From: Hericium rajendrae
Lineage: Eukaryota > Basidiomycota > Agaricomycetes > Russulales > Hericiaceae
Reading direction: 5' to 3'
DNA length: 64,000 nt
NCBI GenBank assembly: GCA_033439255.1
Contig: CM065879.1
Coordinates: forward strand, 3,106,501 to 3,170,500
Positions 22,385 to 60,380 of this stretch are shown piece by piece. Under the pieces are notes generated by a model. The model made no database searches. It was given only the letters and a program-made list of their open reading frames with translations, and had not been told where the DNA came from. Each line of letters opens with the position of its first letter. Position 1 is the stretch's first letter. A program made the position numbers and the translations under genes.

Positions 22385-25220
<2,836 letters not shown>

Positions 25221-26529
25221 ATGTTGAGTGTATTCTGATACTATTTGCTTGTTTCTTTCTACACTGAATTTGTCATTATCGTTGAACTCAGTGTTATACT
25301 ACTACACTGCCGGTCTATTTGTGTTCCTTCCTTCGTCCTCACGCACGGTTTCAGGGCGATGACGGTACGTGTGCTGACTCTGCGATGAGCGTTGAAACGA
25401 GATCGGGCGTCATCGCAGAATGGTTTGACTGTCTTATCCCTCCGCTCATGTCTGTATGGATATTGGACTCGAGCGCTCCGTCATCATTCCACTGCACTGA
25501 CTTGTCGGGATATGGCAGGCTTTATTATCTCCTAATTGTTCTCAGCTTCCCCAATGAGTGTTTCAAACCTTGCCTGCTTCATCATGGGACCTCGTCATGC
25601 GCGGAAGGCCTCCATGCTCTGGTTTGATTTTCCTTTTCAGTTGCTCTACGTTTTCTTTGGGCTGGTCGCCCCTGGATCATGTTACAGACATCAATTCCTC
25701 TGATCCGTCTGGGTATGCTGCGCTACGGCGCATGAGCGGATGAGCAATCGCGATGCCGCTCACTGTAAGAGATCATGACTGTTTTCGGCGTTTCCCCTGA
25801 ACACAACTCGGTTATATTCGACCAAGACACCTCGACAAAGCACGATGCACCGTTAGGCACGTCTGGACAATCTGCTCAATCAAAGCTCAAACGACACGAA
25901 TCTGTAGATGCAAACTCGTTTCTGGGTCTGTTCTGACCTTCTGTCGAGTCGACGATGCCGGATGCTCTATGTCGCATATCTATGCGTAGAACGTGAAACC
26001 CGACAGCTCTTCCTCCGGAAATGCAACGTACCTGGCGATCTGCAGATACAGTTTAAACATGCTCGCGGAAAGGAACGGAAGCCGTCGACGGCGGGTTTCC
26101 TGGGCTGATTCCTTTGATCCCGCTCACTCTCTTATTGTTAAGCGGAGATTCGGCGCTGCGAAGCAGAACGGTAGGCCGAATGTTTCGATGTGCTGTATTG
26201 CTCGCGCTTCTGACTTATTGTGTTGCAGCGATGTGCCTTGGAGTGAGCTCGAGATCTTCTCGTGCGGAAACCGATACGATGCTGCAGCCGCGTATGGCTA
26301 GGCACTTCTTATTGTTTTCCTGCCGTCTGGCCCTGCATGTCTCTCCGTCGGCTCACATTCGCACTTACGACACAGTGACGATATCCGAATTCATGGCACT
26401 CGATTTAGCAGCGCTGTGAATATATAAACCCACCAGTCGCTCCATTCTCCTCAGGTCCTCGCATTCTTCACTCCATCGAGAGCAAAGCCCAAGCTACCTC
26501 TTCTATCCCCACACATCCTCATCTCTGAA
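25221..26529. other. Spacer between CEF1 and pheromone precursor A
   Basis: About 1.3 kb shared with 36235-37562 in copy B. Short open frames on both copies do not keep reading frame between copies, which argues against coding. The right end is the pheromone-gene promoter. Confidence 0.6.
26421..26428 (+). promoter_or_regulatory. TATA box of pheromone precursor A
   Basis: TATATAAA lies about 105 bases before the ATG at 26530, followed by a pyrimidine-rich leader. The same arrangement stands before copy B. Confidence 0.55.
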
Positions 26530-26652
26530 ATGGACTCCTTCAACACCATCGTCGCGACCCTCTTTTCTGACGTCGCCGTCGACGCCATCCCCAGTGTCCC
26601 CGTCGAGGCCGAGTCCAGCGGCAGTGGCGGCGAGTCCTACTGCATCATCGCC
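26530..26652 (+). CDS. Mating-type-like lipopeptide pheromone precursor, copy A (stop displaced)
   Basis: Codons 1-41 read like a basidiomycete pheromone precursor: start MDSF, a short Val/Ala-rich leader, then an acidic Gly/Ser stretch and a C-terminal CaaX box (GGESYCIIA). Family knowledge: the Cys is farnesylated, the last three residues removed, the end methylated, and the leader cut off to give a secreted peptide of roughly 9-14 residues. In this copy the codon after CIIA is TTA and the frame runs on to 26832, which would bury the CaaX box. One T fewer in 'GCCTTAATGG' would give GCC TAA, and homopolymer miscounts are common in this sequence, so copy A may be intact. Otherwise it is a dead precursor. 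The 41 codons match copy B apart from the two residues after the Cys. Confidence 0.75.
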
Positions 26653-26655
26653 TTA

Positions 26656-27249
26656 ATGGCCGACTCAACTTTATCTCATGACCGTTCGTACCGTTGCTTC
26701 GCAGGGATGAATTTGGCCACTGACATCATTTGCCCTTCCGTAGACCACGCTATATCTCAGCCGCGGATTCGTTTTACTTGTTGGAAGGATGGGAAGGCAC
26801 ATTCCGTGGTTGTTTGGAACATTTTGATTTAGTTTATTGCGCGGATGGCGCACACTTCGTATTCGTTCTTCGTTTTCGCTCGGTTTCGTGCTGATTGTAT
26901 GGAATACTGTATTATATTGAATTCATCGTCTAAGGATGACTTACAAGCGCAGAAAACGAAGCAAGAGAGCTGCTTGGTAAACTCATGATCACTGTCCCGC
27001 GCCTGCCCGTACAAGACCAGAGACGAGGTCACTCGCAGTCGAATGCCAGAGCTATAATATATTTTCGATTGCAATATGAACAAAGCCCGTCGTGAAATAT
27101 CGAGGGGACAGTAACTCGTGCGCGTGAAGGCTCGCCTCCTGTCCTCTCGTCTCGGTCTTCAGTTTCTTCGGACCGTGGAGGGTGGAAGACGGCGGGGACT
27201 CCATGGCAGCAGGGCCATCAATATACATAGCCGCGATGACTTCGGCCAG
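26656..27249. other. 3' region between pheromone A and FunK1 gene 1
   Basis: Pheromone 3' UTR and the tail of the convergent FunK1 gene. Antisense to 27130-27249 lies a decayed extension of the kinase C-terminus past its stop (GPKKLKTE in frame on minus). Confidence 0.6.
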
Positions 27250-30197
27250 TCATGCCTCCCATGGATGGATGTCTGTTGCGATTGATGCATTCTGCTGGAG
27301 TTCCTCTCTCCGTCGTGTCAATTCCTTCTCCATCGCATCGCGTGCGAGCTTCTCGGCCTCTATCGGAGATCCCTGCGATATCCTCGTGATCTCGTCGTCA
27401 AGCATGGCCAGGACCTCTTGATGAATAGTCCCCTGTACGAAGTCGTCGTATGCATAGAATCCGAGACGAAGGATCTTCCACCACCTGGACAACAGGGGCT
27501 TCAGTCTTTCAAAGTACGGGTGAAAGTGGTCCATGATCAGAGTGTCGAAATCATCGGGCTGCTGGAACAGCTTGCGCTTGTTTGTCGTGAGCGTGATGTC
27601 ATCGTCTGAGTCAAAAAGACAGTAGACAATAACGTGTAGGGCCTGTGTCCGCGGATCCGTAGGGTCCTGCATGCATAGTTCGTCTCGTCTTCCGCCTCCG
27701 GGCCCTTTTCGGGTGAGGCATAGATAGACAAGAACCCAAAAAAAGGATTCCAGGTCATGGATGGCACTGTGAAATGCTTGAGTACCGATGCAATCTGTCC
27801 TTCTTCTTGTTTCGATGCCGCTGTACATCTGCGTTGATAATACTTCATAGCTCATGAAGGCCTTGGTACCCTGGAGACATTATTAACGTGCGTCAAGGAT
27901 CGGTCAAATGTAGAAGATTTACAGTCGGTCTACCGACACCAGCCTGACGGTCAGCCCAAAATGGTGGTGGGGTCTGTGCAAAATCACATTGTTAACAGAT
28001 GGGGTCATGAGGTTCAACATCGCAAATGCTCACCTCGGCATTTGGCTCATAAAGATGCAAGTCATCCTTTGTGATCTATGGAATGCAAAATGAGATGTTG
28101 ACGAGCTGTTTGCTCAGCAATTTGCGCACCAGGCCCTCGTGTGTCTTGGGGAAAATCTGTAGAACCTTTTCGACATACGTGACTGCATGTCCCGGTTTCA
28201 AGTTGAAGCGACGAAGGATAAGCACAGCCAAAGAGGAGTCCACCTGGGCAATGCGGAAAAGCCGAAGAACGTCCATGAATGCCCTAATTTGTTCATCAGG
28301 AACATTCAAGGATGAGTATTGGATTCTCTTCTCTGTCTGCTTGGCGTAGTCAAGATCGATGAGACAACCAAATGTGTTGTGGGCAGGATCGCTACAGTTG
28401 TGCTGGTAACATATCAGGATATTGCCGGTGCTGATGTCGCGATGGACGACTCCGCGAAAATACAAGTCTCGATGTCCTATGTTATAGGCAGATGATGAGT
28501 CACGACCACCTAGGCCTAGAGTGGCACACTTACCCTCAATAGCATCCCGAATGACGGTTATAAGCTCCAAAAGATCCTTGAAGAACTTGATAGGCCAACC
28601 GACTGTCCTCATGAGGGTGCGCGTCAGGACGCGCGTGGTGCAGGGTTGCGCCGTAAAGGCATGGCGCTCTTCCGTAGCTATGACGGGAACGGATTGCTCT
28701 GCCGATTTCGTCTCGTCGAGCTCCGAAGCCTTCCTCTTATTGTCAACTTCAGTCACATTAGCGAATATACTGTCTGTAAATGGTTGAAGCTGTAATCCCT
28801 GACGAAGAGATGAGGTTTCATCTTTCACGTCTGTCTCCCCGTCCTTGACCCCCATGTCCACGGAGCGAATGATATCGCATACGTGTGGCGTTGGAGACGT
28901 CAAAGCGGCGCAGAAGTCCGCCTCTTTGGTTGACCTCTCCATACGCCAGGCTTGCTTGAGTACATATTGCTATAGTCATTCGGGTCAAAACAGAGAGCAT
29001 ACATCAACACAGATAGACGACTCACCTCTGATGATGCCTCGGATTGTCCCATCTCCACAACTGCCCACACAAGCGTCGCTCGATCAGACATTGCGGCAGC
29101 CCTTGAAGTGCTCAGGGTCCGCACGGTAACGTACCACTTCCCAGTAGTCGAATCATCATTTTCTGGTACCAGAATGGCCCACTTAGTTTGATAAACGGTT
29201 GAGTTGTAGTCACCGAGGGTTATATCGTGGTCGGTAGAGAAGTGACGTGTCCGCGTTTTCGGACGATAGATCATCATGCTACTATCCCACCCGAGCTTCG
29301 ACGGAGGTAAACAAGAGAACGCCATGATGACCTGCACAAACTTCCTCGCGTCCTAGACATACGGATGAGTCAGAGCTGAGCTCTGTAAAAAGAATGCGTG
29401 ATTATACGCACAGTATATATGTCAATGGGTGTTGCCATTCCAAGAAGGCCAGACCGGTCGCAGAACCAGACAGAGAGCTTGGATTTGCAGAGCAGGAGGC
29501 CAAGGGCGAAGCGTCTGTCGAGCTGTTCTTGCAAGACATGTCGAAGATACCTGCATAACTGATTAACGCCACTCTTTATATTCTCTTGATCGTCCTTGGG
29601 TTTCATCTCCACAGGCGCTAGAACGCGGAGCCACCAAATACTGCATTTTTGCGCAAGTTCTTTGGTCTTTAAATATTCAGTAGGACTATTGAAATATCTG
29701 AAAATATGACATACTAGTTCATCCTTCTCTTCCTCCGACTTGCATGCGACTATCTTATCCATGAGCACCTTCGTCGTGCGGTCCAGGTCACGTAAGGACT
29801 GGGCATTGTCGTTACCCAGCATCATTGCTACATCTGGACGAGTCCCTGAGGAAAGTTCATTGCGGGACTTGGGCGCGTCGTCAGGGCGAGCTAACCAATA
29901 TGCATGGTCAACTTCGAGCTTGATCCCAAGGGCTCTGCAAGCATCCACTACGGCATTGGCCGCGTTCACGAATGACAGATAAAAATCCTTCTCTTTCGTC
30001 ACGTCGGAAGAAGTAAAGTTCCAAGAGGGTGAGTGCGTATCAAGATACTGCAGAACTGAGTCCACGTGAGCGGAATCGACAGGTAGGATGCGACTGAGGA
30101 AGGTGTTCGTGTCGGCAACGTAGGCATTGTTGTTGAGCTCTTCTTGTACCATCTTTGCCACGTCCTCGACTAAAGCCTTCTTCTGCGTAGCCTGCAT
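27250..30197 (-). CDS. FunK1-type fungal protein kinase, gene 1
   Basis: FunK1 kinases (Pkinase_fungal) form an expanded family of Agaricomycetes with no settled role. Order of parts: helical N-domain (KKALVEDVAKMVQEELNNNA, then SVWFCDRSGLLG); an adjacent beta-rich region (FVQVIMAFSCLPPSKLGWD); the N-lobe with LKQAWRM and TRVLTRTLMRTVGWPI; the catalytic loop VVHRDISTGNILI (HRD...N kept); the metal loop LIDLDYAK, with DLD in place of DFG; GTKAFMSYEVL; AIHDLESFFWVLVYLCL, the FunK1 signature. About nine introns, for example 29353-29411; the one at 29667-29714 is 48 nt without a stop. The first ATG is at 30195-30197, but an upstream exon as in gene 2 is possible. The protein ends at HPWEA, about 35 residues shorter than gene 2. 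Confidence 0.88.
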
Positions 30198-30748
30198 CGT
30201 AAACGAGGATTTGGTACCTGTTTCAGCTCGTAGTCAGTGTTGCTATATTGATCGTTATGTGCAGGAACTTCGGGAGTCGTGGCAGAGAAGAAAAACGCAC
30301 ATAACAAATAAGCTTAAACCCTGGAACAGACCATTTATACCAAGCCTGGGATCCGAAGCTCTATCTGATTCTCCTGGAAGGGCAAGATTGTTGCGGCCAA
30401 CACGAGGCTGGCGTACACGGCCCCGGTTTGTCTGAGTTCAAGCTACTTAGCTTCAAGACTTGACGAGCGTCCATTATTCAACTCGGCCATCGGCATCTTC
30501 CGTGCACTGTTCGGCAAATCGCGGTCGGACAGAACGATTGAAGTCGAGCATACGGGGCCGAGGGGAAACAAAGGAGCAAAGTGGACGGCTTGACAATAAT
30601 CTGTACTCGCATTGACAAGAGCAACTATGAGCCGCGATGAATCCATTCGGCATGCACAACAGACCAGGATGCACGTCCACTTAAAGTGTGCAACGAAGCG
30701 GTGGCCATATGAACGATGTTTATTCCGAGTCCTGCGCTATTCGAGTAT
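30198..30748. other. Intergenic between FunK1 genes 1 and 2
   Basis: Promoter side of gene 1 and 3' side of gene 2. A segment near 30465-30535 (GCCATCGGCATCTTCCGTGC within it) recurs upstream of the other two FunK1 genes, so the three promoters are related. Confidence 0.6.
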
Positions 30749-33700
30749 CTACTCATGAAGCCTGGCCTCTGCCTCTGTCTTTAGTTTCTTCGTACCTTGT
30801 GGAGTCGGAGTCGTCGGTACGTCCATAACGGCAGAGCCATCATACATCCCTGCGTACGAAACAGCTCTGGCCGGCGACTCCTCCCACGGATGGATGTCTC
30901 TTGCAATCGACATATTCTGCTCGAGATCCAGTCTCCGCCGTGCCAACTCCTTCTCCATCGCATCACTCGCCTGCTCCTCGGCATGTGTTGGGTATCCTTC
31001 CGAAATGTTCTTCACCTCTTCGTTTAGTATGTCGAGGACTTGCTGGTGAATAGTCCCGTGCATGACATCGTCATACGCATAGAATCCAAGGCGAAGGATC
31101 TTCCACCATGCGGACAACAGGGGCTTCAGTCTTTCGAAATACGGGTGGAAGTGGCTCATGATCAGATCTTCAAAATCGTCGGGCTTCTCGAACAGTCTTT
31201 TCTTGTTCCTCGTGAGTGTCCTGTCGTCATCGGAATCAAAGAGGCAGTAGACAATGACGTGCAATGCCTGTGCACGTTTCTCAGTAGGATTCCGAGTGCA
31301 TAATTCCTCTCGTCTTGCGCCTCCGGGGCCCTTTCTGGTGAGACATAGATAAACAAGGACCCAGAAGAAGGATTCGAGATCATGGATGGCACTGTGACTC
31401 TGGGTGCTGTCAGCAATAAGGCCTTGCTTCTTGGCAGCCCCAACGGTGTATGCGTCACCAGATAATACTTCGCAGCTCATGAAGGCTTTCGTACCCTGAA
31501 AAAATTATCAATACTGGAGAAGGTTAAATCAGAAATTCAATACTTACCGTCCGTCTTCCGCTACCAGCCTGACGATCGTGCCAGGAAGGTGGTGCACTCT
31601 ATAGAGATATCAATCAACATACTGATACTATCTGCGTTATGAATGCTTACATTAGTATTTGGCTGGTATTGAAGACGGAGGTCAACTTTCGAGATCTAAG
31701 GGGGACATTAAATTATATCGATCAGCATGACGGCTCATATGCGTACCTGCTCCCTCGGGGTATCAGGGTAGATATCTAGAAGATGTTCCACATAAAAATT
31801 GACACGACGACCATCCTTGAAACGACGAAGCAGGTCTGTAGCCAGACCGTCATCAATCTGAAGTCCATGCATCCAACCGAGCAGGGAAACAGCAATTGAG
31901 ACGTCAGCGCTCTTGACTGCGGACACAGGAAAATTGATCCTCTTCGCTGTTCTCTTCGCGTAATCGAGGTCAATGAGACAGCCAATTGTGCGGCCGTCAT
32001 CTGTGAGACATATCAAGATATTGCCTGTGCTGATATCGCGGTGGATAACTCCGTCAAAATAGAGATCGCGGTGTCCTATATAACAAGCGATTCGAACATT
32101 GAGTCGCAAGTATTGATAGTCAAGAAGACACTTACCCTGGACAGCATCACGAATGACAGTTATAAGCTCCGAAATGTCCTTGAAGAACTTGATAGGCCAA
32201 CCGACTGTCCTCATGAGGGTGCGCGTCAAAACCCGGGCGGTGTATAGTGATTCGCTCTGTGTTGCATAGATATGTTCAGGCTCCGTAGATTTAACATGGA
32301 CATTTTTCTCTTCTTCCTTCGTTTCATCGCGCTCTGATGCCTTTCTCTTGTTGCCAGCGTCAGTCGCAACAGCAAACGCGCTTTCCGCAAATACTTGAAG
32401 CGTTAGCCCCTGCCGAACAAGCGACGTCTCGTCTTTCATTTCCATCTGGCCATCTTTGACTCTGATGTCCACGGAGCAGATGATATCACAAACATTTGGG
32501 GCCGGGGACGTCAAAGCGGTGCGAAAATCTGCCTCTTGCGGTGACCTGACCATACGCCAGGCTTGTTTCAGTACATATTGCTGTAGTTATTTAGGTTAGA
32601 ACAGAACACTTATACCGACACAGATAAACTTGCCTCCGGTGATGAATCGCTTCGGTCCATCTCCACGACTGTCCAGACAATCGTGGCTCGACCAGACATT
32701 ACCGCAGCCCTCACAGTGCTCAGGGCGCGCACGGTGATGTACCATTTCCCTGTGGCTGAATCGTCTTTCTCCGGCACCAGAATGGCCCACTTAGTGCGAT
32801 AGATAGTTGACTCAAAGTCGCCGATGGTGACACCACGGTCGGTAGAGAAATGACGTGTCCGCGTATCGAGACGATAGATCATCATGCTTCGATCCCACCC
32901 AAGCTTCGATGGATGGAGACAAGACAACGCCATGATGACCTGCACAAACTTCCTCGGATCCTGGGACAAGCGATGGTCAGGGTCGATGACATGGAAAGGA
33001 GATCTACTTCAACGTACCGTATGAATGTCGATTGGCGTCGCCGTTCCAAGAAGGCCAGAACGGTCGCAGAACCAGACAGAAAGCTTGGATTTGCAGACCA
33101 GGAGACCAAGGGCGAAGCGTCTGTCGAGCTGTTCTCGCAGGACCTGTCGAAGATACCTGCATAGCTGATCGACGCCGATCTTCCTATTCTCCAGATCATC
33201 CTTGGGCTTCATTTCCACGGGCACGAGGACACGGAGCCACCAAACGCTACATTTCTCCGCAAGCTCCTTAGACTTCAGAACAATTAATATGATTAAGTAT
33301 TTGAAGACGACGGCGAGACGCACCAATTTAGCCTTCTCTTCTGTCGACTGACACGCGACTATCTTGTCCATGAGCACCTTCGTCGCATTGTCCAAGTCGA
33401 GCAAGGACTGGACGTCGTCGTTCCCCAGCACCATTGCCACATCCGGACGGATAAGCGGAGCAAATTCGTCGCGGGATCTGGGCGCATCATCAGGGCGAGC
33501 GATCCAGTAGGCATGGTCGATTTCGAGCTTGATCCTGAGGGCTCTGCACTCGTCCATTACAGCTGCGGCGGTATCTACAAATGGCTGATAGAGGTCCTTC
33601 TCTTTCGTCGGGCTAGGCGGCACGGAGTTCCAAGAGGGCGAGAACCTATTAAGATGTCGGAGAACTGAAGCTACATGAGTGGAATCGACAGGTAGCACGC

Positions 33701-33893
33701 GGTTGAGAAAGGCGTCCGTGTCCGCGACGTAAGCGTTGTTGCTGAGCTCTTCTTGCACCATTTTTGCCACGTCTTCGACCAGTGCCTTCTGCTGCGTAGC
33801 TCCCATAGTAATCGAGGCTTTAACTCCTGAGTCGGATCGTACCCTAGAAGAGGAGTCTTCAGCATCATACCGGGGGCCTTGAGAGTCAGACAT
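30749..33893 (-). CDS. FunK1-type fungal protein kinase, gene 2
   Basis: The most complete of the three paralogues. The start is the ATG at 33891-33893 (MSDSQGPRYDAEDSSSRVR), then ATQQKALVEDVAKMVQEEL. Other parts match gene 1: SVWFCDRSGLLGTATPIDIH, FVQVIMALSCLHPSKLGWD, LKQAWRMVRSPQEADF, TRVLTRTLMRTVGWPIKFF, VIHRDISTGNILI, CLIDLDYAKRTAKRI, GTKAFMSCEVLSGDAYT and AIHDLESFFWVLVYLCL. The catalytic HRD...N motif is present; the DFG position reads DLD. The C-terminal tail is full length, with a basic KKLKTEAEARLHE end that resembles a nuclear-localisation patch (inference). Introns sit at the same places as in gene 1. Genes 1 and 2 are tandem in the same orientation, about 550 bases apart. Confidence 0.9.
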
Positions 33894-34506
33894 CTCGATG
33901 GTAAAATCGAACGCACAAAGGTATGCCCGCACTTATAGGAGAACTTGCATCCGATAAGGTTGTTTAATCTATCTGATTTCGACCTACTGGGAAAGGGCAG
34001 GTCGTTGCGCGGGGCACGAGGCTGGCGCACGGCTGCTTTGTTCAAGTTCTGAATCTCTCAATGAGCGCCGCATGTTCGACGAGTCTGCCATCGGCATCTT
34101 CCGTGCACCATCCGGCAAGGCGCGTCCAGGCAGATCTGAGATCTGAGGGAAGGCGGCAGCCCACTGGCAGCCCACGAAAGAACGCGTCCGTATCGACGAC
34201 TTGGACATCGTTGCACATTGAGCTCTTCGTCCGGCATATCCTCCGTCATGTCGTCGACAAACTTTCCACGTACTACTACAGCCAGCATTCTGATAGCAAA
34301 GGAGGTTTGATCGTGTCCCCGCCACCCTAATAGCGGGTCTTATTCGAGACTGACCACCGACGTTTGGCAGAAAATTTCATACATCGCGCAGCAGGCACGA
34401 TTTTCTCAACAATTGAGATGTTTCGTCTCGCGAACGGCCTATTCGAGGCTGCCCGCGGCGGCGGAGCCCTTGCTCGGCTTCAGAGTATTTATTGACTGCG
34501 AACTGA
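33894..34506. other. FunK1 gene 2 promoter and duplication junction
   Basis: Bases 34060-34150 match the region upstream of FunK1 gene 3 (about 41455-41550). From about 34150 to 34506 the sequence has no match in the window. The junction to CEF1-derived DNA lies at 34506/34507. Confidence 0.65.
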
Positions 34507-36234
34507 CTGCGCCGTCTGGAGAATAAGTGGAAGCCCGAGGAGGAAGAGGCCGAGCGAAAGAAGCGTCAGCGCCGCGGCAAGAACGGCGAGAATGGCTCCA
34601 CGAAACCAAGTTTGTGGCCGCTCGCGAAGCCCAGATCCAGAAGCTCAAGGAGGCAGACTCCATTGGGCGCAGGAGCAAGTTGGTTTTGCCCACGGCCCAA
34701 GTCAGCGAGAAGGAGCTAGAAGTGATTGCAAAAATTGGACGGGCGGGGGAAAATGCGAGGGCGTTGACAGACCAGGAGGGTCCCAGTGGGCAGCTGCTTG
34801 GATCATACTCAGAGTTGGAAAGGGCAAAGGTAGCAAGGACACCACGGAATGCTGCACAATGTACGTGTCACAACACCCAATCATAATCTGTCACTGACTT
34901 TCTCTCCAGAGGACAACGTTATGATGGAAGCACGCAACTTGCGCAACATGACGGCTGCACAGACACTACTTCTCGGTGAAGAGAACACGCCGATGCATGT
35001 TACCAACGGAGGGACTGGCTTCGAGGGTGCCACCTCTCAGCATCAAGTCGCATTCACACCCAATCCTCTGGCGACGGCCCGGGGTATGCTTGCACCTGGC
35101 GCGACTCCGCGAATTGGCGCTACTCCCGGGACGAAGGGCGAAGTTCCGTACCGCACGCCCATGAACGACAGCCTCAGTCTCAACGTAGCCGAGGGCGCTG
35201 CACTGATGGACGTGACGCCGCGAGGACGCAATCGCATATCACCTGCTGCGCGGACTCTCAAGGCGGCCTTCACGACTCTGCCAAAGCCAGAGAACAATTT
35301 CGAGCTGCTAGTCCCTGAAGAGGAAGAAGAGGAGGCCGTCGAGGGTGCTGTGTTGTCTGAAGAGGATGCAGCTGAACGAGACGCGCGGTTGAAGCGGAGG
35401 CGCGAGGAATAAGAACGACTGGCGCTCGTACGGCGGTCCCAGGCTGTTCAGCTTACCCTTCCGCAACCAGCGAATGTTGATATCCAACAGCCACTCCAGG
35501 ATCTGAGTCTCGCGCCCGCCACTGAGGAAGGGCAGGTGCAGAAGCTGGTCGACATCGAGCTCGCGCGCCTCCTGCAGCACGATTCGCTTGTCCACCCACT
35601 CCCTGGGCATCCGTGAAGGACGACATGCATCGCGAGCTTTCGACCACGCTTGGATTCCCCGACGTACCTGCCGAGCAGGTCAAGGACGGCCTAGTCTCGC
35701 TCGCTAAGGAAGACGTCGCCGACGACTCAACCTCCTGGGCGCACTTCAGGCAGAATCTCGCGTTCGACGTGTCGACGCGCCGCTGGGTGAACGCCGCGGA
35801 TCTGAGCGCAGAGCAGCGGCACGCCGGCAACGCGGCGCTCCTGAGGGACACGATGGCGAAGGAGGCGAAGGTGGAGAAGAAGCTCGGCGTCACGCTCGGC
35901 GGGTACGTCAACCGTGCGCGCGAGAAAGTGAAGACGTTCGCGGGCGCGTGCAATGCACGGCAGCAGGCGCATATCGACCTGGAGAGCTTCGCGCGGCTGC
36001 GGTCGAACGAGGAAGCGGCGGCCCGGCGCGCGTGGCGTCGCTAAGTAGGAGGTCGAGAAGCTGGGGACAAGGGAGCGGTCGCTGCCGCTGTATGCGGAGC
36101 TGGGGAGCGAGAAGAGGGAGGCGGAGGGGAGGGTTGCAGTGCTGGAGAGCGGGTCATGCCAGGGGCGGAGGCGCTGAGTGAGGCGGCCTTGGCTGAGGAG
36201 GAAGGCATGGAGGGCGTGGAGGTTGCGACGTAGA
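34507..36234 (+). pseudogene. CEF1/CDC5 3'-fragment pseudogene
   Basis: A duplicate of CEF1 from LRRLENK onward, without the Myb repeats, start codon or promoter. The first part still reads well ([33 protein letters not shown]), and the intron near 34861-34910 is kept. Decay is plain: an in-frame TAA at 35410-35412 where the parent has CAA, a gap of about 55 bases near 35609 that removes the TSQAGG segment, further small gaps and frame changes, and loss of coiled-coil residues. It keeps GGG at about 36132, which shows the frame expected at the matching place in the parent gene. It is unlikely to make a working splicing factor. Confidence 0.92.
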
Positions 36235-37453
36235 TATTGAGTGTATTTTGATATTATTTGCTTGTTTCTTTCTACGCTGAAGTTTGTCATTATCGTTGGA
36301 TTCAGTGCATTACATAGTTACACTAGTACACTGGCGGCCTATCTGTGTTCCCTTCTTTCATTTATGCGTGTTTTCTGGAGACGACGGTACGTATGCTGAC
36401 CGACCCTACATTGATAATTGGAACGAGATCAGGCGTCATCGCGGAATGGTTGGACTGCCTTTCCCTTCGACGCTCATGTCTGCATGGACATTGGACTTGA
36501 GCGCTCTTTCATCATTCTACTCCACTGAGCTGTCAGGATATGGTAGGCTTATTCTCTCAATTGTTCCCAGCTTCTCCAGCGGGTGATAAAGCCTTGCCCA
36601 CTTCAACATGCGACCTCATCGTGTGCGTAAGGCTTCCGTGCTCTGGATGGATTTTCCTTGTCAATTACTCTGCTTTCTTTCTGGGCTGTTGCCCCCTGAA
36701 TCATGTTACAGACATCAACTTTGATCCTTCTGGACCCAGCTAGGGTGCACAAGCACATGCGCGGTTGCGATGCCGCTCCCTGTACGGGAACATGACTGTT
36801 TCTCGGCGCTTCCCTTGGAACACAAACCAATCGTACTCGACCAAGACAACTCGACAAAGCATGACTCACCGTTAGGCACGTCTGGACCACCTGCTCAACC
36901 AATGCTCAATTGCACGCAAACTATAGATGCAAATTTGTTCTTGCGTCTGTTCTGACCTGGCGAAGCGACCGGCACTGGTCCTTGACCCCGGATGCTCTAT
37001 GTCGCATATCTATGCGCATAGAACGTGAAACCCGACTGCTCTTCCTCTGGAAGTGTAACGTACCTGGCGATCTGCAGATACAGTTTAAACGTGCTCGCGG
37101 AAAGGAATGGAAGCCATCAGCGACGGGTTTCCTGGGCTGATTCGTTTGATCCCACTCACTCTCTTATTGTCAAGCGGAGAGTCGGCGCTACGAAGCAGAA
37201 CGGTGGGCCGAATGTTTCGATGTACTGTATTGCCCTCGCTTCTGATTTATTGTATTGCAGCGATGTGCCTGGGAGTGGGCTCGATATCTTCTCGCGCGGA
37301 AACCGATACGATGCTGCTGCTGCGATGGCTAGGCACTTCTTATTGTTTTCCCACCGCCTGGCCCTGCATGTCTCTCCGGCAGCTCACATTCGCATGTACG
37401 ACACAGTGACGATATCCGCCTTCATGGCACTCGATTTAGAGGCGCTGTGAATA
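36235..37453. other. Spacer between CEF1 fragment and pheromone precursor B
   Basis: The counterpart of 25221-26420. No conserved coding frame; differences between copies fall without codon periodicity as far as can be judged by eye. Confidence 0.6.
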
Positions 37454-37461
37454 TATATAAA
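37454..37461 (+). promoter_or_regulatory. TATA box of pheromone precursor B
   Basis: TATATAAA lies about 100 bases before the ATG at 37563, preceded by one extra TA repeat compared with copy A. Confidence 0.55.
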
Positions 37462-37562
37462 CCCACCAGTCGCTCCATTCTCCTCAGGTCCTCGCATTCT
37501 TCACTCCATCGAGAGCAAAGCCCAAGCTACCTCTTCTATCTTTGCACATCCTCATCTCTGAA

Positions 37563-37688
37563 ATGGACTCCTTCAACACCATCGTTGCGACCCTCTTCTC
37601 TGACGTTGCCGTCGACGCCATCCCCAGTGTCCCCGTCGAGGCCGAATCCAGCGGTAGCGGCGGCGAGTCCTACTGCGTCGTCGCCTAA
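37563..37688 (+). CDS. Mating-type-like lipopeptide pheromone precursor, copy B (intact)
   Basis: A complete 41-residue precursor without introns: start MDSF, leader NTIVATLFSDVAVDAIPSV, then PVEAESSGSGGESYCVVA and TAA. A C-terminal CaaX box (CVVA) after Tyr, the MDSF start and the small size are together characteristic of homobasidiomycete B-locus pheromone precursors. Family knowledge: farnesylation at the Cys, removal of VVA, carboxymethylation, and N-terminal cutting near an acidic pair, here most likely within EAES, to release a short secreted peptide recognised by a STE3-type receptor. It was not obvious as a gene because of its length. No receptor gene is seen nearby, so it may be a non-mating-locus paralogue or the edge of a B-type locus. 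Confidence 0.85.
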   Translation: MDSFNTIVATLFSDVAVDAIPSVPVEAESSGSGGESYCVVA

Positions 37689-38280
37689 GGGCCGACACGT
37701 CTCGACTTCATGACCGTTCGTACTGGTGCCTCGCGGGAATTAATTTCTGCCACTGACATCATTTGCCCTTCCGTAGACCACGCTGTATCTCAGCCGCGGA
37801 TTCGTTTTACTTGTTGGAAGGATGGGGAGGCACATTCCGTGGCTGTTTGGAACATTTTGATCTAGTTTATTGCGCGGATGGCGCCCACTTCGTTTTCGTT
37901 TTCGTTCTTCGTTTTCGCTCGGTTTCGTGCTAATTGTATGGAACACTGTATCATATTGAATTCATCGTCTAAGGATGACTTACAAGCGCGGAAAACGAAG
38001 CAAGAGAGCTGCTTGATAAACTCATGATCACTGTCCCGCGCCTGCTCGTACAAGATCAGAGACGAGGTCACTCGCAGTCGAGTGCCAGAGCTATAATGCA
38101 TTTTTGATTACAATGTAAACAAAGCCCGTCGTGGGATATCGAGGGGACAGTAACTCATGCGCGTGAAGGCTCGCCTCTTGTCTCGGTCTTCAGTTTCTTC
38201 GGACTGTGGAGGGTGGAAGACGGCGGGGACTCCATGGCAGCAGGGCGATCAATATACATAGCCGCGATGACTTCGGCCAG
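37689..38280. other. 3' region between pheromone B and FunK1 gene 3
   Basis: The counterpart of 26656-27249. It includes the decayed antisense extension of the kinase tail. No other gene is seen. Confidence 0.6.
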
Positions 38281-41200
38281 TCATGCCTCCCATGGATGGA
38301 TGTCTCTTGCGATTGATGCATTCTGCTGGAGTTCCTCTCTCCGTCGTGCCAATTCCTTCTCCATCGCATTGCGTGCGAGCTTCTCGGCCTCTATCGGAGA
38401 TCCCTGCGATATCCTCGTGATCTCATCGTCAAGCATGGCGAGGACCTCTTGATGAATGGTCCCCTGTACGAAGTCGTCGTATGCATAGAATCTGAGGCGT
38501 AGGATCTTCCACCATCTGGACAACAGGGGCTTCAGCCTTTCAAAGTACGGGTGAAAGTGGCCCATGATAAGGGTGTCGAAATCATCAGGTGATTGGAACA
38601 GCTTGTGCTTGTTTGTCGTGAGCGTGATGTCATCGTCCGAATCAAAAAGACAGTAGACAATAACGTGTAGGGCCTGTGCCCGCGGATCCGTAGGGTCCCG
38701 CATGCATAGTTCGTCTCGTCTTGCGCCTCCGGGCCCTTTTCGGGTGAGGCATAGATAGACAAGAACCCAAAAAAAGGATTCCAGGTCGTGGATAGCACTG
38801 TGACATGCTTGAGTACCGATGCAATCCGTTCTTGTTTTGATGCCGCTGTACATCTCCCTTGATAATACTTCATAGCTCATGAAGGCCCTGGTACCCTGGA
38901 GACATCATTAACGTGCGTCAAGGATCGGTCAAATGCAGAAGATTTACAGTCGGTCTACCGACACCAGCCTGACGGTCAGCCCAAAACGGTGGTGGGGTCT
39001 GTGCAAAATCACATTGTTAACAGATGGGGTCATGAGGTTCAACATCGCACAAATGCTCACCTCGGCATTTGGCTCATAAAGATGCAAGTCATCCTTTGTG
39101 ATCTATGGAATGCAAAATGAGATGTTGACGAGCTGTTTGCTCAGCAATTTGCGCACCAGGCCCTCGTGTGTCTTGGGGAAAATCTCTAGAATCTTTTCGA
39201 CATACGTGACTGCATGTCCCAGTTTCAAGTTGAAGCGACGAAGGATAAGCACAGCCAAAGAGGAGTCCACCTGGGCAATGCCGAAAACCGGAAGAATGTC
39301 CGTGAATGCCCTAATTTGTTCATCAGGGACATCCAAGGATGAGTATTGGATTCTCTTCTCCGTCTGCTTGGCGTAGTCAAGATCGATGAGACAGCCAAAA
39401 TAGGCGGGATCACTACAGTTGTGCTGGTAACATATCAGGATATTGCCTGTGCTGATGTCGCGATGGACGACTCCGTGAAAATACAAGTCACAATGTCCTA
39501 TGTTGCAGGCAAATGATGAGTTACAACCACCTAGGTCTAGAGTGGCACACTTACCTCGGATAGCATCCCGAATGACGGTTATAAGCTCCAAAAGGTCCTT
39601 GAAGAACTTGATAGGCCAACCGTGGGTTCGCATGAGAGTGCGCGTCAGGATGCGCATGGTGCAGGGTTGTGCTGTAAAGGCGTGACGGCCCTCCGTAGCT
39701 ATGACGGGAACGGATTGCTCGGCCGATTTCGTCTCGTCGAGCTCCGAAGCGTTCTCATTGCCAACTTCAGTCGCATTAGCGAATCTACTGTCTGTAAATG
39801 GTTGAAGCTGTAATCCCTGACGAAGAGACGAGGTTTCATCTTTCACGTCTGTCTCCCCGTCCTTGACCCCCATGTCCACGGAGCGAATGATATCGCATAC
39901 GTGTGGTGTTGGAGACGTCAAAGCGGCACGGAAGTCTGCCTCTTTGGTTGACCTCTCCATACGCCAGGCTTGCTTGAGTACATATTGCTATAGTCATTCG
40001 GGTCAAAACAGAGAGCGTACATCAACACAGATAGACGACTCGCCTCTGATGATGCCTCGGATTGTCCCATCTCCACAACTGCCCACACAAGCGTCGCTCG
40101 ATCAGACATTGCGGCAGCCCTTGAAGTGCTCAGGGCCCGCACGGTAACATACCACTTCCCAGTGGTCAAATCATCGTCTTCTGGAACTAGAATGGCCCAT
40201 TGAGTGTGATGGATGGTTGAGTCGTAGTCACTGAGGGTTATATCGCGGTCGGTAGAGAAGTGACATGTCTGCGTTGTCGGACGATAGATCATCATGCTTC
40301 TATCCCACCCGAGCTTCGACGGAGGTAAACAAGAGAACGCCATGACGACCTGCACAAACCTCCTCGGATCCTGCGACAAGTGATGGTCAGGGCCGATGAC
40401 AAGGAAAGGAAATCTACTTCGACGCACCGTATGAATGTCAATTGGCGTCGCCGTTCCAAGAAGGCCAGAACGGTCGCAGAACCAGACAGAAAGCTTGGAT
40501 TTGCAGACTAAGAGACCAAGGGCGAAGCGTCTGTCGAGCTGTTCTCGCAACACCTGTCGAAGATGCCTGCATAACTGATCGACGCCGATCTTCCGATTCT
40601 CCAGATCATCCTTAGGCTTCATTTCCACGGGTGCGACGACACGGAGCCACCAAACGCTGCATTTCTCCGCGAGCTCCTTGGACTTCAAAACAATTAGTAT
40701 GATTATTTAAAGACGATGGCGAGACGTACCAATTTAGCCTTCTCTTCTGTCGACTGACACGCAACTATCTTGTCCATGAGCACCTTCGTCGCATTGTCCA
40801 AGTCGAACAAGGACTGGACATCGTCGTTCCCCAGCACCATTGCCACATCTGGACGAATAAGCGGAGCAAACTCGTCGCGGGATCTGGGCGCGTCATCAGG
40901 GCGAGCTATCCAGTAGGCATGGTCGATTTCGAGCTTGATCTTGAGGGCTCTGCATGCGTCCACTACAGCTGCGGCAGTATCTACAAATGGCTGATAAAGG
41001 TCCTTCTCTTTCGTTGGGCTGGATGGCACAGAGTCCCAGGAGGGCGAGAACGTATTAAGATACTGGAGGACTGAATCCACGTGAGTGGAATCGACAGGCA
41101 GGACGCGGCTGAGAAAGGCGTCCGTGTCGGCGACGTAGGCGTTGCTGCTAAGCTCTTCTTGCACCATTTTTGCCACGTCTTCGACCAGTGCCTTCTACTG

Positions 41201-41291
41201 CGTAGCTCCCTAGGTAATTGAGGGCTTAACGCCTGAGTCGGACCGTACCCTAGAAGAGGAATCTTCAGCATCATTCCGTGGAGTCTTGAAA
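38281..41291 (-). pseudogene. FunK1-type fungal protein kinase, gene 3 (mosaic, 5' end damaged)
   Basis: The catalytic part is preserved: VVHRDISTGNILI, CLIDLDYAKQTEKRI, GTRAFMSYEVL-type start and AIHDLESFFWVLVYLCL, ending at HPWEA like gene 1. The 5' part up to about 40375 is closest to gene 2 (CSVWWLRV, KPKDDLENRKIGVDQLCR, TPIDIHT and the following intron), and the rest is closest to gene 1, so the gene is a mosaic. The first coding stretch is broken: the start near 41289 leads into a frame change, and the frame matching gene 2 has TAG codons where gene 2 has Met (SIT) and Gln (ATQ). An internal ATG at 41164-41166 (MVQEELSSNAYVAD) could still start a shorter kinase. I call it a pseudogene with low certainty. 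Confidence 0.7.
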
Positions 41292-41713
41292 GTCAGACAT
41301 CTCGATATAAAGTCGAAAAATAAATTAGACCCACACTTATAGGAGAGTTTGCATTCGATACGATGGTCCATCTGATTTCGACCTGCTGAAGAATGGCAGG
41401 TCGTTGCGCGGAGCACGAGGCTAGAAACGAGGCTAGTGCAAGGCTGCTTTGTCTGAGATCTGAACCTCTCGACGAGCGCCCATTGTTCAACGAGTCTGCC
41501 ATCGGCATCTTCCGTGCACCATTCGGCAAGGTGCGGCCCAGCAGATCTGAGTGCTTGGACGAATCGAATCGACTTGGAAATCGTTGTTGAGTTCTTCGTC
41601 CAGCATCTTCGTCACGTCGTCGACAGTCTTTCCACGACTGATTCATCTCGCGCATTCAAATCAAAAGACGAAAATAATATATTATGCCGACTTCTACTGA
41701 TCTACAGAGTCCC
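41292..41713. other. FunK1 gene 3 promoter and BiP 3' flank
   Basis: Bases 41455-41550 match the upstream regions of the other FunK1 genes. No gene is seen. Confidence 0.6.
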
Positions 41714-42920
41714 TTACAGCTCGTCATGGGAGTGGAACGGCTCCTGCTCGTCATCCGGCCCCGGCTCGTAGCTCGACCCCGAGCCACCATACAACTTCGC
41801 CGTAATGGGGTTCACAACAGCCTGCACCTCGCTCAGCTTCTCCTCGAGCTCCGCCGCGGTGGCAGTCGCGCCCTCGCCCTCGACCCAGTCGGTCGTCTCC
41901 TTCGTGAGCGCGAGGAGCGTCTTCTTGTCCTCGTCGCTGATCTTCGTGCCCATGCCCTCCGGGTCCGCAAGCTGCGTCTTGATCCCGAACACGAACGACG
42001 ACAGCGAGTTGAGCGCCTCGATGCGCTGGCGCGCCGCGTCGTCCTCCGACGCGAAGTCTTCTGCCTCCTTGATCATGCGCTCAATCTCGTCCTTCGACAG
42101 ACGGCCCTTCTCGTTCGTGATCGTGATGCTCTCCGACTTGCCCGTGCCCTTGTCGGCCGCGGCGACCTTCATGATGCCGTTCGCGTCGACCTCAAACGTG
42201 ACCTCGATCTGGGGAACGCCGCGGGGTGCGGGGGGGATGCCGGTGAGCTCGAACTTGCCGAGATGGTTGTTGTCCTTCGTCATCGCGCGCTCGCCCTCAT
42301 AAACCTGGATGAGCACAGTGGGCTGGTTGTCCGCCGCGGTCGAGAAGATCTGCGACTTGCGGGTGGGGATAACGGTGTTGCGGGGGATGAGCTTGGTGAA
42401 GACACCGCCGGTGGTCTCGATACCGAGCGTGAGCGGGCAGACATCGACAAGGACGACGTCCTCAGTGCCGGCCTCACCAGAGAGGATACCACCCTGGACA
42501 GCCGCACCGTAGGCGACGGCCTCGTCGGGGTTGATGCCCTTCGAGGGCTCTTTGCCGAAGTACTCCTTCAGGAGCTGCTGGACCTTGGGGATACGGGTGG
42601 AACCACCGACAAGGACGACCTCATCAACATCGTCCTTCTTGACGTTCGCGTCCTTGAGCACCTGCTCGACGGGTTTGAGCGTCTTGCGGAAGAGGTCCAT
42701 GTTGAGCTCCTCGAACTTGGCACGGGTGAGCGTCTCGGAGAAGTCGTTGCCGTTCTCGAACGATTCAATCTCAATGCGGGTGCTCTGCTGGGACGAAAGC
42801 GTGCGCTTGGCCTTCTCGACCTCACGCTTCAGCTTGCCCATTGCCTTGTTGTTCTTGCTCGCGTCGACACCCGTCTTCTTCTTGTACTGCTTGGCAAGGT
42901 AGTCGATAACACGGTTGTCA

Positions 42921-42959
<39 letters not shown>

Positions 42960-43893
42960 AAGACCTCGAAGACACCGTCGTCGATGGAAAGAAGGGAGAC
43001 ATCGAAAGTTCCACCACCGAGATCGTAGACGATGATCTGCGACTCGCCACCCTTCTTGTCAAGACCGTAGGCGATGGCTGCGGCAGTGGGCTCGTTGATG
43101 ATACGGAGGACATTGAGGCCAGCGATAGTGCCGGCGTCCTTGGTGGCCTGACGCTGGGCGTCGTTGAAGTAGGCGGGGACAGTGACGACAGCGTGGGTAA
43201 CCTTCTGGCCGAGGTAAGCCTCGGCAGTCTCCTTCATTTTCGTCAGAACCATGGCGGAGATCTCCTCAGGAGTCTGCAAGCAAAGGTAAGCAGCAACTCG
43301 CACAGGAATTCAAGAGATGACGCACAAAGTCGCGGAGCTCGCCCTTGTGTTGCACCTGGATAACGGGCTTCCCGCCCTTGTCTGTGACCTTGAATGGCCA
43401 GTGCTTCATGTCGCGCTGAACCTCAGGCTCGTCAGCTCTGCGGCCGATCAAACGCTTTGCGTCGAACACGGTGTTCTCAGGATTCGAATGGTATGCGTTC
43501 TTGGCGCTGTCACCAATACTAGAAGACAAAGATGAGATACAGACCTACGACAGAAGAAAAGGACACCTACAGTCGTTCATTTTCGTCAAAGGCAACCCAT
43601 GAGGGGGTAATGCGATGGCCTTGGTCGTTGGTGATAATCTCAACACGTCCACCTTTTGCGACACCGACACACGAGTATGTAGTACCCAAATCTAGAGAGC
43701 ATGGTTAGGCATCAAGTGGTACTAGGCAGCGATGCTACGTACCAATACCAATCACGGTGCCGTACTCAGACTTGTTCGAGGCATCTGCGCTGACAGCAGG
43801 GGGACAAAGGAGAATGAGAGCCAAGAAGAGGAAGAAAGCGAAAGAAAGGCCCGTGACTAGACGGCCAGCGGTTGTCCGCGTCGGACGAGACAT
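41714..43893 (-). CDS. KAR2: ER Hsp70 chaperone BiP/Kar2
   Basis: The lumenal Hsp70 that binds unfolded proteins, drives translocation with Sec63 and holds the unfolded-protein sensor. The start ATG at 43891-43893 opens a signal peptide (hydrophobic [20 protein letters not shown]) cut before [14 protein letters not shown]. The nucleotide-binding domain shows [76 protein letters not shown] and [15 protein letters not shown]. The substrate domain shows [20 protein letters not shown]. It ends in the ER-retrieval signal HDEL, followed by TAA at 41714-41716. Introns lie at 43691-43741, 43519-43570 and 43274-43325, all in the N-terminal fifth. The frame is intact throughout. It lies beside, and outside, the duplicated accessory block. 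Confidence 0.98.
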
Positions 43894-46729: not shown

Positions 46730-47172
46730 GCGCCAGCGGTGCGTGTCTGCCGCTCTGATTGGGTTTTATCTGGCTTTTGTGTTTTGGTCCCGTCGATCGC
46801 ATCCTCTGTAACTGTTGTATTAGTGTCGTTTGCCCGTCTCCCCACTCACATACGATAGGTATACCAATATATACCCGCAGTACTTGTACCATTACTAGTG
46901 CTTGTTGGTGTTAGCCACTCGATAATGAACATATTTTATTCTGCAGGGTGGTTCGTAGTATCATCAAATCCTTTTGCCCGCGAGGTGCGTGCACTCAATG
47001 ACCTACTCTACTTTCCAGAGTTGTCTTTGCCAGCTGCCTCTTTCCATGGTCCAAACGTCTTTCCCCTCTGTTTTCATCGCAGTCTAACTATGTCTGTACC
47101 AGCGTACTCCCCTCTCTTTTCTCCAGACCCACAGCGGGATGGACGTTCTGGTCTTGGGGTACAGGAAGGGAG
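46730..47172. other. Intergenic after NAA30
   Basis: NAA30 3' UTR and spacer up to the dispersed inverted repeat. No gene is seen. Confidence 0.6.
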
Positions 47173-47920
47173 GCACGTGATCCCTGGCAGCCGCACATGA
47201 TGCGCGACGCGCGACGCGTCCTTGTTGGTCGCATTCCAACTCTCCAGGCAAACCTTATTCACATCCAGCGTGACCGCCGCCCAGGATCGTATAAATACCC
47301 CTCGTCTTTCTGCCAGCCTCCTCACCCCCCTTCCCTCTTCCCCCCTCCCTCAAGTGCTACCTCTTTCCCCCTCCCGCTATCGAGTGCGAGGAGTGCTGTA
47401 TGTCTCTCGCTGGACTCGTCGCTGGCATTGAAAGCTGACTGGTGTCTCTTCCTCCTAGCCGACGCGCCCACTCGGCGGAGGGGAGGCTTCGGGCTGCGGG
47501 ATGCGGCCCATGCATGGTCCGCCCCGTCCTTCCTCTATCTCCTGCTCGCATGTCTCTGCCGCCGTTTCTCTTGGTTACAGGGACCCGTCAAGTACAAAAT
47601 TCAAGGTCAAACAGTTTATCAAGTCCACGCACAAAATACTTTAAGACCACGGGATGGATGGTACGGGCGGTGGGAGGGTGGGAGGCTTTTTCCCTACGGG
47701 GTTTTTTAATGCTCCCCATTCGATGATCACCAGCGTTGGGTGGTGGGTGATCTATGTGTGCGTCCTTATCCTCAAGGTATGTCTATTAGTTGCTCAATCA
47801 TCCTCGCTTGTACTAAATCTTGCGGGAAGGCGTGTCGACTACTGTTTTAGGGGTTACGTTACATTTATTTTTATTGCGCAATTACCATATGGTTCGGGTT
47901 TTCGGGAGCTTCTACGTGTG
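47173..47920 (+). repeat. Dispersed repeat, plus-strand copy (pairs with 59080-59830)
   Basis: About 750 bases that recur in opposite orientation at 59080-59830. The unit has gene-like order: a CACGTG-like start, a TATA box (GTATAAATACC near 47290), a C/T-rich leader, an intron-like segment (GTATGTC...CTCCTAG, about 47398-47458), then an open stretch ending GRWEGGRLFPYGVF and stop. In the two copies the last 40 codons differ mostly by like-for-like residues (Val/Ile, Tyr/Phe, Leu/Val). The family is unknown. No terminal repeats or target-site duplication could be fixed by eye. Confidence 0.75.
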
Positions 47921-59079: not shown

Positions 59080-59830
59080 CACGCTTGGAAGCTCTCGAAA
59101 ACTCGAATTATATAGTAATTTCGCAATAAAAATAAGTATAACGTAACATCCCGCCGAAAGAGTGGTCGATACGCCTTTCAGCCGGGTTCAGCACAGCTGA
59201 GAATGATCATCCAATAAAAAGACATACCTTGTAGAATAATGCTGCTGGCATGGATCATCCACCACACAACGCTGGTGATCATCGAATGGGGAGCATTAAA
59301 AAACCCCGTGGGGAAAAAGCCTCCCACCCTCCCACCGCCCGTACCGTCCGCCCTGCATTGAAGTATTTTGCGCGTGGATTTGAAAAAGTATTTGATCTTG
59401 AACCTTGTACTTGGTGGGTCCCTGTAACGAAGAAGAACGCGGAAGGGACATGCGACGAAGAAACAAGAGAAAGGACAGGGCGGACCGTGCATAGGCCGCA
59501 TCCCGCAGCCCGAAGCCCCCCTCCGCCGAGTGGGCGCGTCGTCTAGGAGGAACAGACACCAGTCAGCTTTCGATGCCAGCAACGAGTCCAGTGAAATGAC
59601 ATACAGCACTCCTCGCACTCGATAGCGGGAGGGGGAAGGAGGTAGAACTGGAGGGAGGGGGAAGAGGGAAGGGGAATGAAGAGGCTGGCAGACAGATGAG
59701 GGGTATTTATACGATCCTGGGCGGCGGTCACGCTGAAAGTGAATAAGGTTTGCCTGGAAGAGTTTGGAATGCGACCAACAAGGACGCGTCGCGCGTCGCG
59801 GGTCATGTGCGCCTGCCATGGAGTCACGTG
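59080..59830 (-). repeat. Dispersed repeat, minus-strand copy (pairs with 47173-47920)
   Basis: Inverted relative to the first copy, with the same order of TATA box (near 59700-59711), C/T-rich leader, intron-like segment and terminal open frame ending GRWEGGRLFPHGVF and stop. The sequences align over their whole length with scattered substitutions and a few small gaps. The copies are about 12 kb apart. Confidence 0.75.
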
Positions 59831-60380
59831 CATACCTTTGACCTCAGGACCGTTACCAGGACCAGGACGTCTATCCCGCCTTAGGCTGGAAAGGCACACA
59901 AGTAAGTATTCTCAAAGGGATGTATAGGCGTCGAAAGCGAAGGAATATTGTGTCTGAAATATGGGAGGCGGCGGCTGGCAAAGATATCGGTGTTTTAAGG
60001 TGGGCCATTGACGCATGAGTCGGGAGTCTGGGACCCGATGTGGTGAGATAACAGTATGAACTGAGGAAGAACGCACCCGTCAATTGAAAGGTATGGTAAC
60101 ATAAGACCCGTCAGAGTGAAGAAGTGTCAATTTGAACTCGCGTATGTACCGTACATACTTATAGGAATGTCCGACCTCAATAAGTCCGAAGATGTAAGCG
60201 AGCGGAAGTGGACTGCGTGGACCGCGTCTGTAGACATGATATCCCATGAATATGGTCATCCATGGTACCGCCTATATTGACCGTTGTCTCACGATAGCTT
60301 GTGCCTGCAGCAATGCAACGTGAACATATCGTCTAGACGTGCCGAACAATACGACGTAGACTTGATCCATCGACTTTTGG
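59831..60380. other. Intergenic, no gene seen
   Basis: 3' flank of the membrane-protein gene; open frames are short and unremarkable. Confidence 0.55.

Follow-up and report, generated by a model that had tools for sequence, protein, structure and literature searches.

Positions 37563 to 37688 of the Hericium rajendrae window (the whole 64-kb stretch analysed, C2:3106501-3170500, from an assembly of 46.77 Mb in 19 contigs) very probably hold a genuine, previously missed gene of very small size that encodes a lipid-tagged signalling peptide. The gene is also very probably a member of a small, scattered family of mushroom 'pheromone-like' genes located far from the mating locus. More specifically, we consider it likely that the ORF is genuinely protein-coding, that its product is a farnesylated peptide like those of basidiomycete pheromones, and that it belongs to a dispersed, glycine-rich, non-mating-type 'pheromone-like' subfamily. 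Passages of a published study (PMC5473757) note that annotation pipelines often miss pheromone precursor genes.

The precursor frame and its flanking signals

The features that make up the proposed gene are as follows.

37454 to 37461, plus strand: TATA box TATATAAA, its first base 109 bases upstream of the ATG
37563 to 37688, plus strand: intact precursor coding sequence, 41 amino acids followed by TAA, with CVVA as its CaaX box
37716 to 37776, plus strand: predicted 3'UTR intron of 61 bases (GTTCGT ... CTGAC ... TAG), from pattern only, starting 28 bases past the stop

The frame translates as MDSFNTIVATLFSDVAVDAIPSVPVEAESSGSGGESYCVVA, then TAA. The initial annotation had described a mating pheromone precursor of 41 residues at this place, and its coordinates, MDSF start, CVVA end and TAA stop all stand on re-reading the sequence and translation. 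The cysteine of CVVA is Cys38, and the predicted lipid-modified core is SGSGGESYC or SSGSGGESYC if maturation follows the pathway of the family. The frame has the general form of a lipopeptide precursor, namely a short ORF with an MD-x-F start and a C-terminal CaaX box. When this form was expressed as a rule (an ATG-GAY-NNN-TTY start, a frame of 30-75 amino acids, and an end of C-[VILATM]-[VIL]-x), a single match was obtained across both strands of the 64 kb, and none in 100 dinucleotide-preserving shuffles.

A TATA box belonging to the gene had been placed about 100 bases upstream, and TATATAAA is indeed found there. The gene had also been called intronless, which is correct for the coding part; in the 3'UTR, the 61-base intron is predicted. 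Counting the two window copies of the gene separately, though they are not independent, 6 of 12 loci have a TATAWA at a distance of 106-113 bases upstream of the ATG (for a 9-base slot, the expectation is 0.004 per locus), and in 8 of 12 the motif occurs anywhere within 250 bases upstream of the ATG. Counted in the same manner, predicted 3'UTR intron signals are present at 9 of the 12 loci versus 5.8% of 20,000 random places, by a rule that was fixed only once the sequences had been inspected (donor, branch and acceptor signals, a length of 48-110 bases, and a start no more than 60 bases past the stop). For the copy at 26530 described below, the start was counted from the place aligned to its lost stop. 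The intron is absent by this rule at C2:4195, C2:4207 and C8:855 kb. Since the signals are also seen in four of the five core genes of the B locus, a 3'UTR intron is not specific to the dispersed pheromone-like class. The element ACAAAG/CTTTGT, which we take to be the pheromone response promoter element, was found in one of 12 upstream regions of 400 bases each, and thus lends no support.

A tandem twin and dispersed relatives

A genome search revealed a second copy of the gene within the window, at 26530-26652 (codons 1-41), with 95% amino acid identity and the end CIIA. After CIIA, the frame extends for 59 residues, to 100 in all. Since the stop has been lost, the CaaX box is no longer C-terminal and, judging from the sequence, the product should no longer be prenylated. 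Either natural loss or a mistake in the assembly may account for the missing stop. The two pheromone frames are offset by 11.03 kb and each is embedded in a copy of a larger duplicated unit.

23399 to 30191, no strand assigned: first copy of the unit, comprising the 3' part of CEF1, the pheromone copy and a fungal kinase (self-comparison and Pfam)
26530 to 26832, plus strand: tandem paralogue with lost stop, a frame of 100 amino acids whose CaaX box is no longer C-terminal
34506 to 41206, no strand assigned: second copy of the unit, which holds the 37563 gene and has a truncated CEF1 part (self-comparison and Pfam)
34849 to 35412, plus strand: CEF1 fragment, Myb_Cef, 187 amino acids, profile positions 1-114 of 230 (Pfam)
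39103 to 40688, minus strand: fungal kinase frames, Pkinase_fungal, PF17667 (Pfam)

Self-comparison of the two units gives 94.0% identity over the first 1.1 kb and 87.3% over the remainder. The neighbours originally reported for the gene, a CEF1 (Myb_Cef) fragment upstream and a Pkinase_fungal gene downstream on the opposite strand, are both recovered with Pfam; PF17667 is presumably the 'FunK1' kinase of that report. The CEF1 frame that accompanies the 26530 copy is longer, covering positions 1-228 of the 230 in Myb_Cef, with Myb-like frames recognised by eye upstream. Given that CEF1 is fuller near 26530 and is only a 187-residue fragment near 37563, the intact gene probably sits in the derived copy of the unit. 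A diverged third copy of the kinase segment (72-81% identity) lies between the units at 30756-34140, such that 27138-41206 contains three PF17667 copies, one pair of them within the 87%-alike segment. Among the literature matches listed for a link between this kinase family and pheromones, none mentions FunK1, and the joint presence of kinase and pheromone in one unit looks like passive co-duplication. As far as the literature was compared, the tandem unit with its CaaX-less twin is particular to this genome.

The two copies also permit an examination of how the frame has changed. Of the 123 coding sites, 8 differ between them: six are synonymous third-position changes and two are V-to-I changes, both at the two aliphatic positions of the CaaX box. 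A neutral simulation using the transition share of the flanks (147 of 220 substitutions) produced a mean of 5.5 amino acid changes, with P=0.0087 for two or fewer. The pattern points to selection on the protein. Codons 1-38 carry six synonymous and zero non-synonymous changes (P=0.00037, for a split picked post hoc with the data already seen). Divergence is 6.5% in the coding sequence, compared with 5.4% in the 150 bases before it, 13.9% in the 1000 bases before, 11.4% in the 150 bases after and 6.9% in the 600 bases after. The coding sequence overall is therefore not more conserved than its surroundings, and only the kind of changes argues for coding.

Beyond the tandem pair, similar frames occur elsewhere in the genome. 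At least seven loci, a lower bound from the loose first look of the genome search, share the ending G-S-G-G-x-x-x-C-a-a-[AT]. Four of these are intact (37563, C2:4195, C8:855 and C8:941 kb) and three are broken (26530, C2:3845 and C2:3104 kb). Those on C8 and the two frame-broken loci on C2 are listed here; the member at C2:4195 kb is described with the B locus.

C8:941 kb: MDSFTSE...SGSGGYSYCIVA, intact
C8:855 kb: MDSFCTA...CGSGGHCYCIIT, intact
C2:3845 kb: end GGSGGESYCIVA, MDSF start and CaaX end in different frames
C2:3104 kb, about 2.2 kb before the window: end GGSGGHSMCIVA, MDSF start and CaaX end in different frames

Assembly error may be the source of the broken loci. Programmed frameshifting at C2:3845 and C2:3104 kb was set aside, as the shifts needed would be of opposite sense. 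Protein matches of the 37563 precursor to its kin are weak (E=0.0015 for C8:941, 0.013 for C2:3845, 0.014 for C2:4195 and 0.49 for C2:3104), and the group rests on these taken jointly, on a DNA match between 37563 and C2:3845 (E=2e-9), and on a link between C2:4195 and C8:941 (E=5e-7). A degenerate DNA core pattern, present in 15 of the 57 loci compared, reaches six of the seven places of the group, missing C2:3104, and matches none of the five core genes at the B locus. When the classical B-locus precursors were used as queries, four of the five (not that at 4207.5 kb) matched only B-locus genes, and for this reason dispersal looks like a property of the G-S-G-G subgroup. The initial annotation had named, as one of two refuting conditions, a lack of similar frames in related species at this or other loci; as regards other loci, this is contradicted within the present genome, which contains six further related ones. 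A link of the C8 members to the A locus was also considered and rejected, because the ten matches obtained with homeodomains fall on C1, C3, C10, C14 and C16 and none on C8. Three homeodomain matches fall within 1.2 kb at C1:1011790-1012921, which is a possible HD region.

Two other parts of the window merit brief mention. The plus-strand ORF at 41684-43363 scores as 'NAD-specific glutamate dehydrogenase' (PF10712), and the minus-strand frame at 41714-43303 is HSP70 (PF00012, E=1.5e-216); the former match is the antisense of HSP70 and constitutes an annotation trap. An inverted repeat of approximately 800 bases (47134-47920 and 59080-59879, 84% identity) contains ORFs at 47197-47709 and 59178-59819 that gave no Pfam match at 0.001.

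The B locus and the marks of a mating pheromone

A search with the STE3 profile (PF02076) yielded 18 exon matches that were grouped into five genes at C2:4205.7, 4211.8, 4214.9, 4248.8 and 4252.4 kb; the search scored ten first-look candidates, and distant receptors could be missed. Among those candidates, none falls in the 64-kb window and all 18 matches lie at C2:4205-4253 kb. This agrees with the earlier remark that no recognisable STE3 gene stands beside the precursor, as the nearest match is on the same contig at a distance of about 1.06 Mb. The 37563 gene is thus without the linkage to STE3 in the B locus that is associated with B mating pheromones. Over the matched pieces, receptors 1 and 3 are 50% identical and receptors 2 and 5 are 48% identical, compared with 24-33% for the eight other pairs. 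Passages of PMC4101180 describe five receptors in Phanerochaete chrysosporium, three of them clustered in the equivalent of the B locus and two of the non-mating type.

A scan of 100 kb (C2:4180-4280 kb) returned 40 rows of CaaX-ended frames, nested starts included, from which six genes with an MD-x-[FV] start were retained. The others were discarded on visual inspection; these included frames with a CaaX end close to receptors 4 and 5, such as a 99-residue MDAS...CCFA at C2:4239.6 kb. Five classical precursors, at 4207.5, 4208.9, 4213.5, 4217.5 and 4218.7 kb, are interspersed with the first three receptors or follow them closely. The sixth, MDSFTNE...GGSGGYSYCVVA, is at C2:4195.5 kb, 10 kb before the first receptor. 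The 4180-4280 kb scan listed no MD-x-[FV]-start frame beside receptors 4 and 5. A Copia-type retrotransposon with an open frame of 1661 codons occupies C2:4189070-4194052 on the minus strand, about 1.5 kb from this outermost precursor of the B region.

The B-locus precursors (C2:4207-4219 kb) and the PF08015 family have an MD start, an acidic leader and an A-ending CaaX box in common with the 37563 precursor. Unlike it, the B-locus precursors have STE3 genes around them, contain an [ED]H dipeptide and exceed the Pfam cut-off. The PF08015 model (Fungal mating-type pheromone) has a cut-off of 22 bits, and in a scan that left out the two frame-broken loci, all five core B-locus precursors scored above it. 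The 37563 precursor reached 14.0 bits and its twin at 26530 reached 13.7, both below the cut-off, and the remaining group members scored 22.7 (C8:941, which passes), 19.1 (C8:855) and 15.5 (C2:4195). PMC8305134 lists ER, DR, EH, NH, EE and DE as charged maturation dipeptides. None of these is found 9-15 residues before the cysteine in the 37563 precursor, which has E28-S29. In an alignment by eye, the five core precursors have EH or DH at the dipeptide place; the residues there are ED at C2:4195, C2:3845 and C2:3104, EA and ET on C8, and ES in 37563 and its twin, with Glu at the aligned position in 11 of the 12 loci and Asp in one. The claim that the gene has the full design of a mating pheromone precursor was therefore overstated. 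The precursor is plainly of the same kind, yet without two of the formal marks. What does hold is the broader proposal of a lipopeptide pheromone-type precursor away from STE3, which the results bear out.

Comparison with known systems, competing explanations and a possible role

Dispersed pheromone-like genes have already been published, contrary to the novelty that the initial annotation implied. The class is known, and it is the position that is particular to this genome, as far as the literature was compared. In A. bisporus, there are likewise short MDS/AF...CaaX precursors located apart from receptors and in several similar copies. The pheromone-like consensus quoted in section 15 of PMC8305134 is GGGSGNGAYC or GGGSGNNAYC, the latter from L. 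bicolor, and the G-rich core of the 37563 precursor resembles it by eye, in a comparison with the quoted consensus. The A. bisporus core is GGGSGNxAYC and that found here is xGSGGxSYC, both being glycine-rich. The same section reports a 3'UTR intron by EST in three of four A. bisporus pheromone-like genes, whereas the intron here is predicted. Furthermore, A. bisporus has a bipolar system in which the PR locus is scattered, whereas in H. rajendrae a compact cluster of receptors and pheromones persists on the same contig, and 37563 does not have the internal charged motif that every A. bisporus precursor is said to contain.

Passages of PMC4101180 describe seven precursors in Pycnoporus cinnabarinus, four of which are mutually similar and presumed to be non-mating-type. 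To the extent described there, both species mix very distinct B-type precursors with a mutually similar, presumably non-mating-type group; map positions and a tandem duplication are known for H. rajendrae, whereas those passages give no positions for the P. cinnabarinus genes. The excerpted text of PMC12387193 reports php-s1 of Pleurotus ostreatus PC80, a pheromone-like gene that, similar to the 26530 paralogue, is without a C-terminal CaaX box; php-s1 adjoins a receptor in the B locus, unlike the 26530 paralogue.

Several other explanations for the gene must be weighed. The 'non-mating or relocated' pheromone of the initial annotation combines two options, of which the non-mating one is the better. 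A relocated but still active B-mating pheromone, which would activate one of the mating-type receptors in either a compatible partner or its own strain, would fit the presence of the gene on the contig of the B locus, the position of an intact relative (C2:4195521) only 10 kb from the first receptor, and a basic architecture matching that of the B-locus precursors. However, the gene is about 1.06 Mb from the receptors and is presumably inherited largely separately from them, its group has several copies on two contigs with a near-uniform core, in contrast to the diversity of the core B-locus precursors, and ES stands where all five core precursors have [ED]H. We consequently judge this explanation to be quite unlikely. 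Because of this distance and the presumed recombination, and because its peptide group is near-uniform and multi-copy, B mating specificity is unlikely to reside in the 37563 gene.

It is also unlikely that the gene is a relic, that is, a duplicated and disused pheromone gene whose frame has not yet been broken. Such decay is seen in three of the seven group members (the stop lost at 26530, and the frame breaks at C2:3845 and C2:3104), the neighbouring CEF1 copy is a fragment, and the coding sequence overall is conserved no more than its flanks. Nevertheless, the frame, CaaX box, TATA box and predicted 3'UTR intron are all intact at 37563, the broken loci may be assembly errors, and the copies differ almost only synonymously, although such selection may predate the loss in the 26530 copy. 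The frame is short and falls below the Pfam cut-off, as might a chance small ORF with a CaaX-like end, but this explanation is highly improbable and was rejected on the basis of the 100 shuffles, none of which matched the ORF rule. It is further opposed by the six related loci, the substitution pattern, and the promoter spacing and 3'UTR intron signals that the loci have in common.

With a dispersed, non-mating-type pheromone-like gene as the preferred explanation, the precursor would be translated from a short transcript that is driven by the TATA box and bears an intron in its 3'UTR. Cys38 of CVVA would be farnesylated, VVA removed and the cysteine carboxymethylated, following the general pathway outlined in PMC8305134. 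Cleavage of the acidic leader near Glu28 would leave an exported peptide of approximately 9-10 residues, SGSGGESYC plus the lipid, which would act on an STE3-type receptor. It seems more likely that this peptide would convey the same message in every strain, for self-sensing, hyphal growth or fruiting, perhaps (and here we are guessing) via the pair of STE3-like receptors at C2:4248-4253 kb, beside which no precursor gene is recognisable. Non-mating STE3-like receptors are common in mushrooms and have no known ligands according to passages of PMC8161036 and PMC8305134, and the former describes those of S. commune as orphans with proposed roles in self-sensing. A bolder and fairly unlikely extension is that the dispersed GSGG lipopeptides supply a second channel of signalling, apart from mating, that is read by the receptors at C2:4248-4253 kb, with the 37563 gene and its CaaX-less twin serving as a natural on/off pair of ligand genes.

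Precursors of the G-S-G-G class escape the Pfam cut-off, which only one of the four intact members passes, and searches with their own kin find them. The four intact candidate ligands, together with the tandem twin that lacks a prenylation box, provide a short list of peptides for five receptors in one species.
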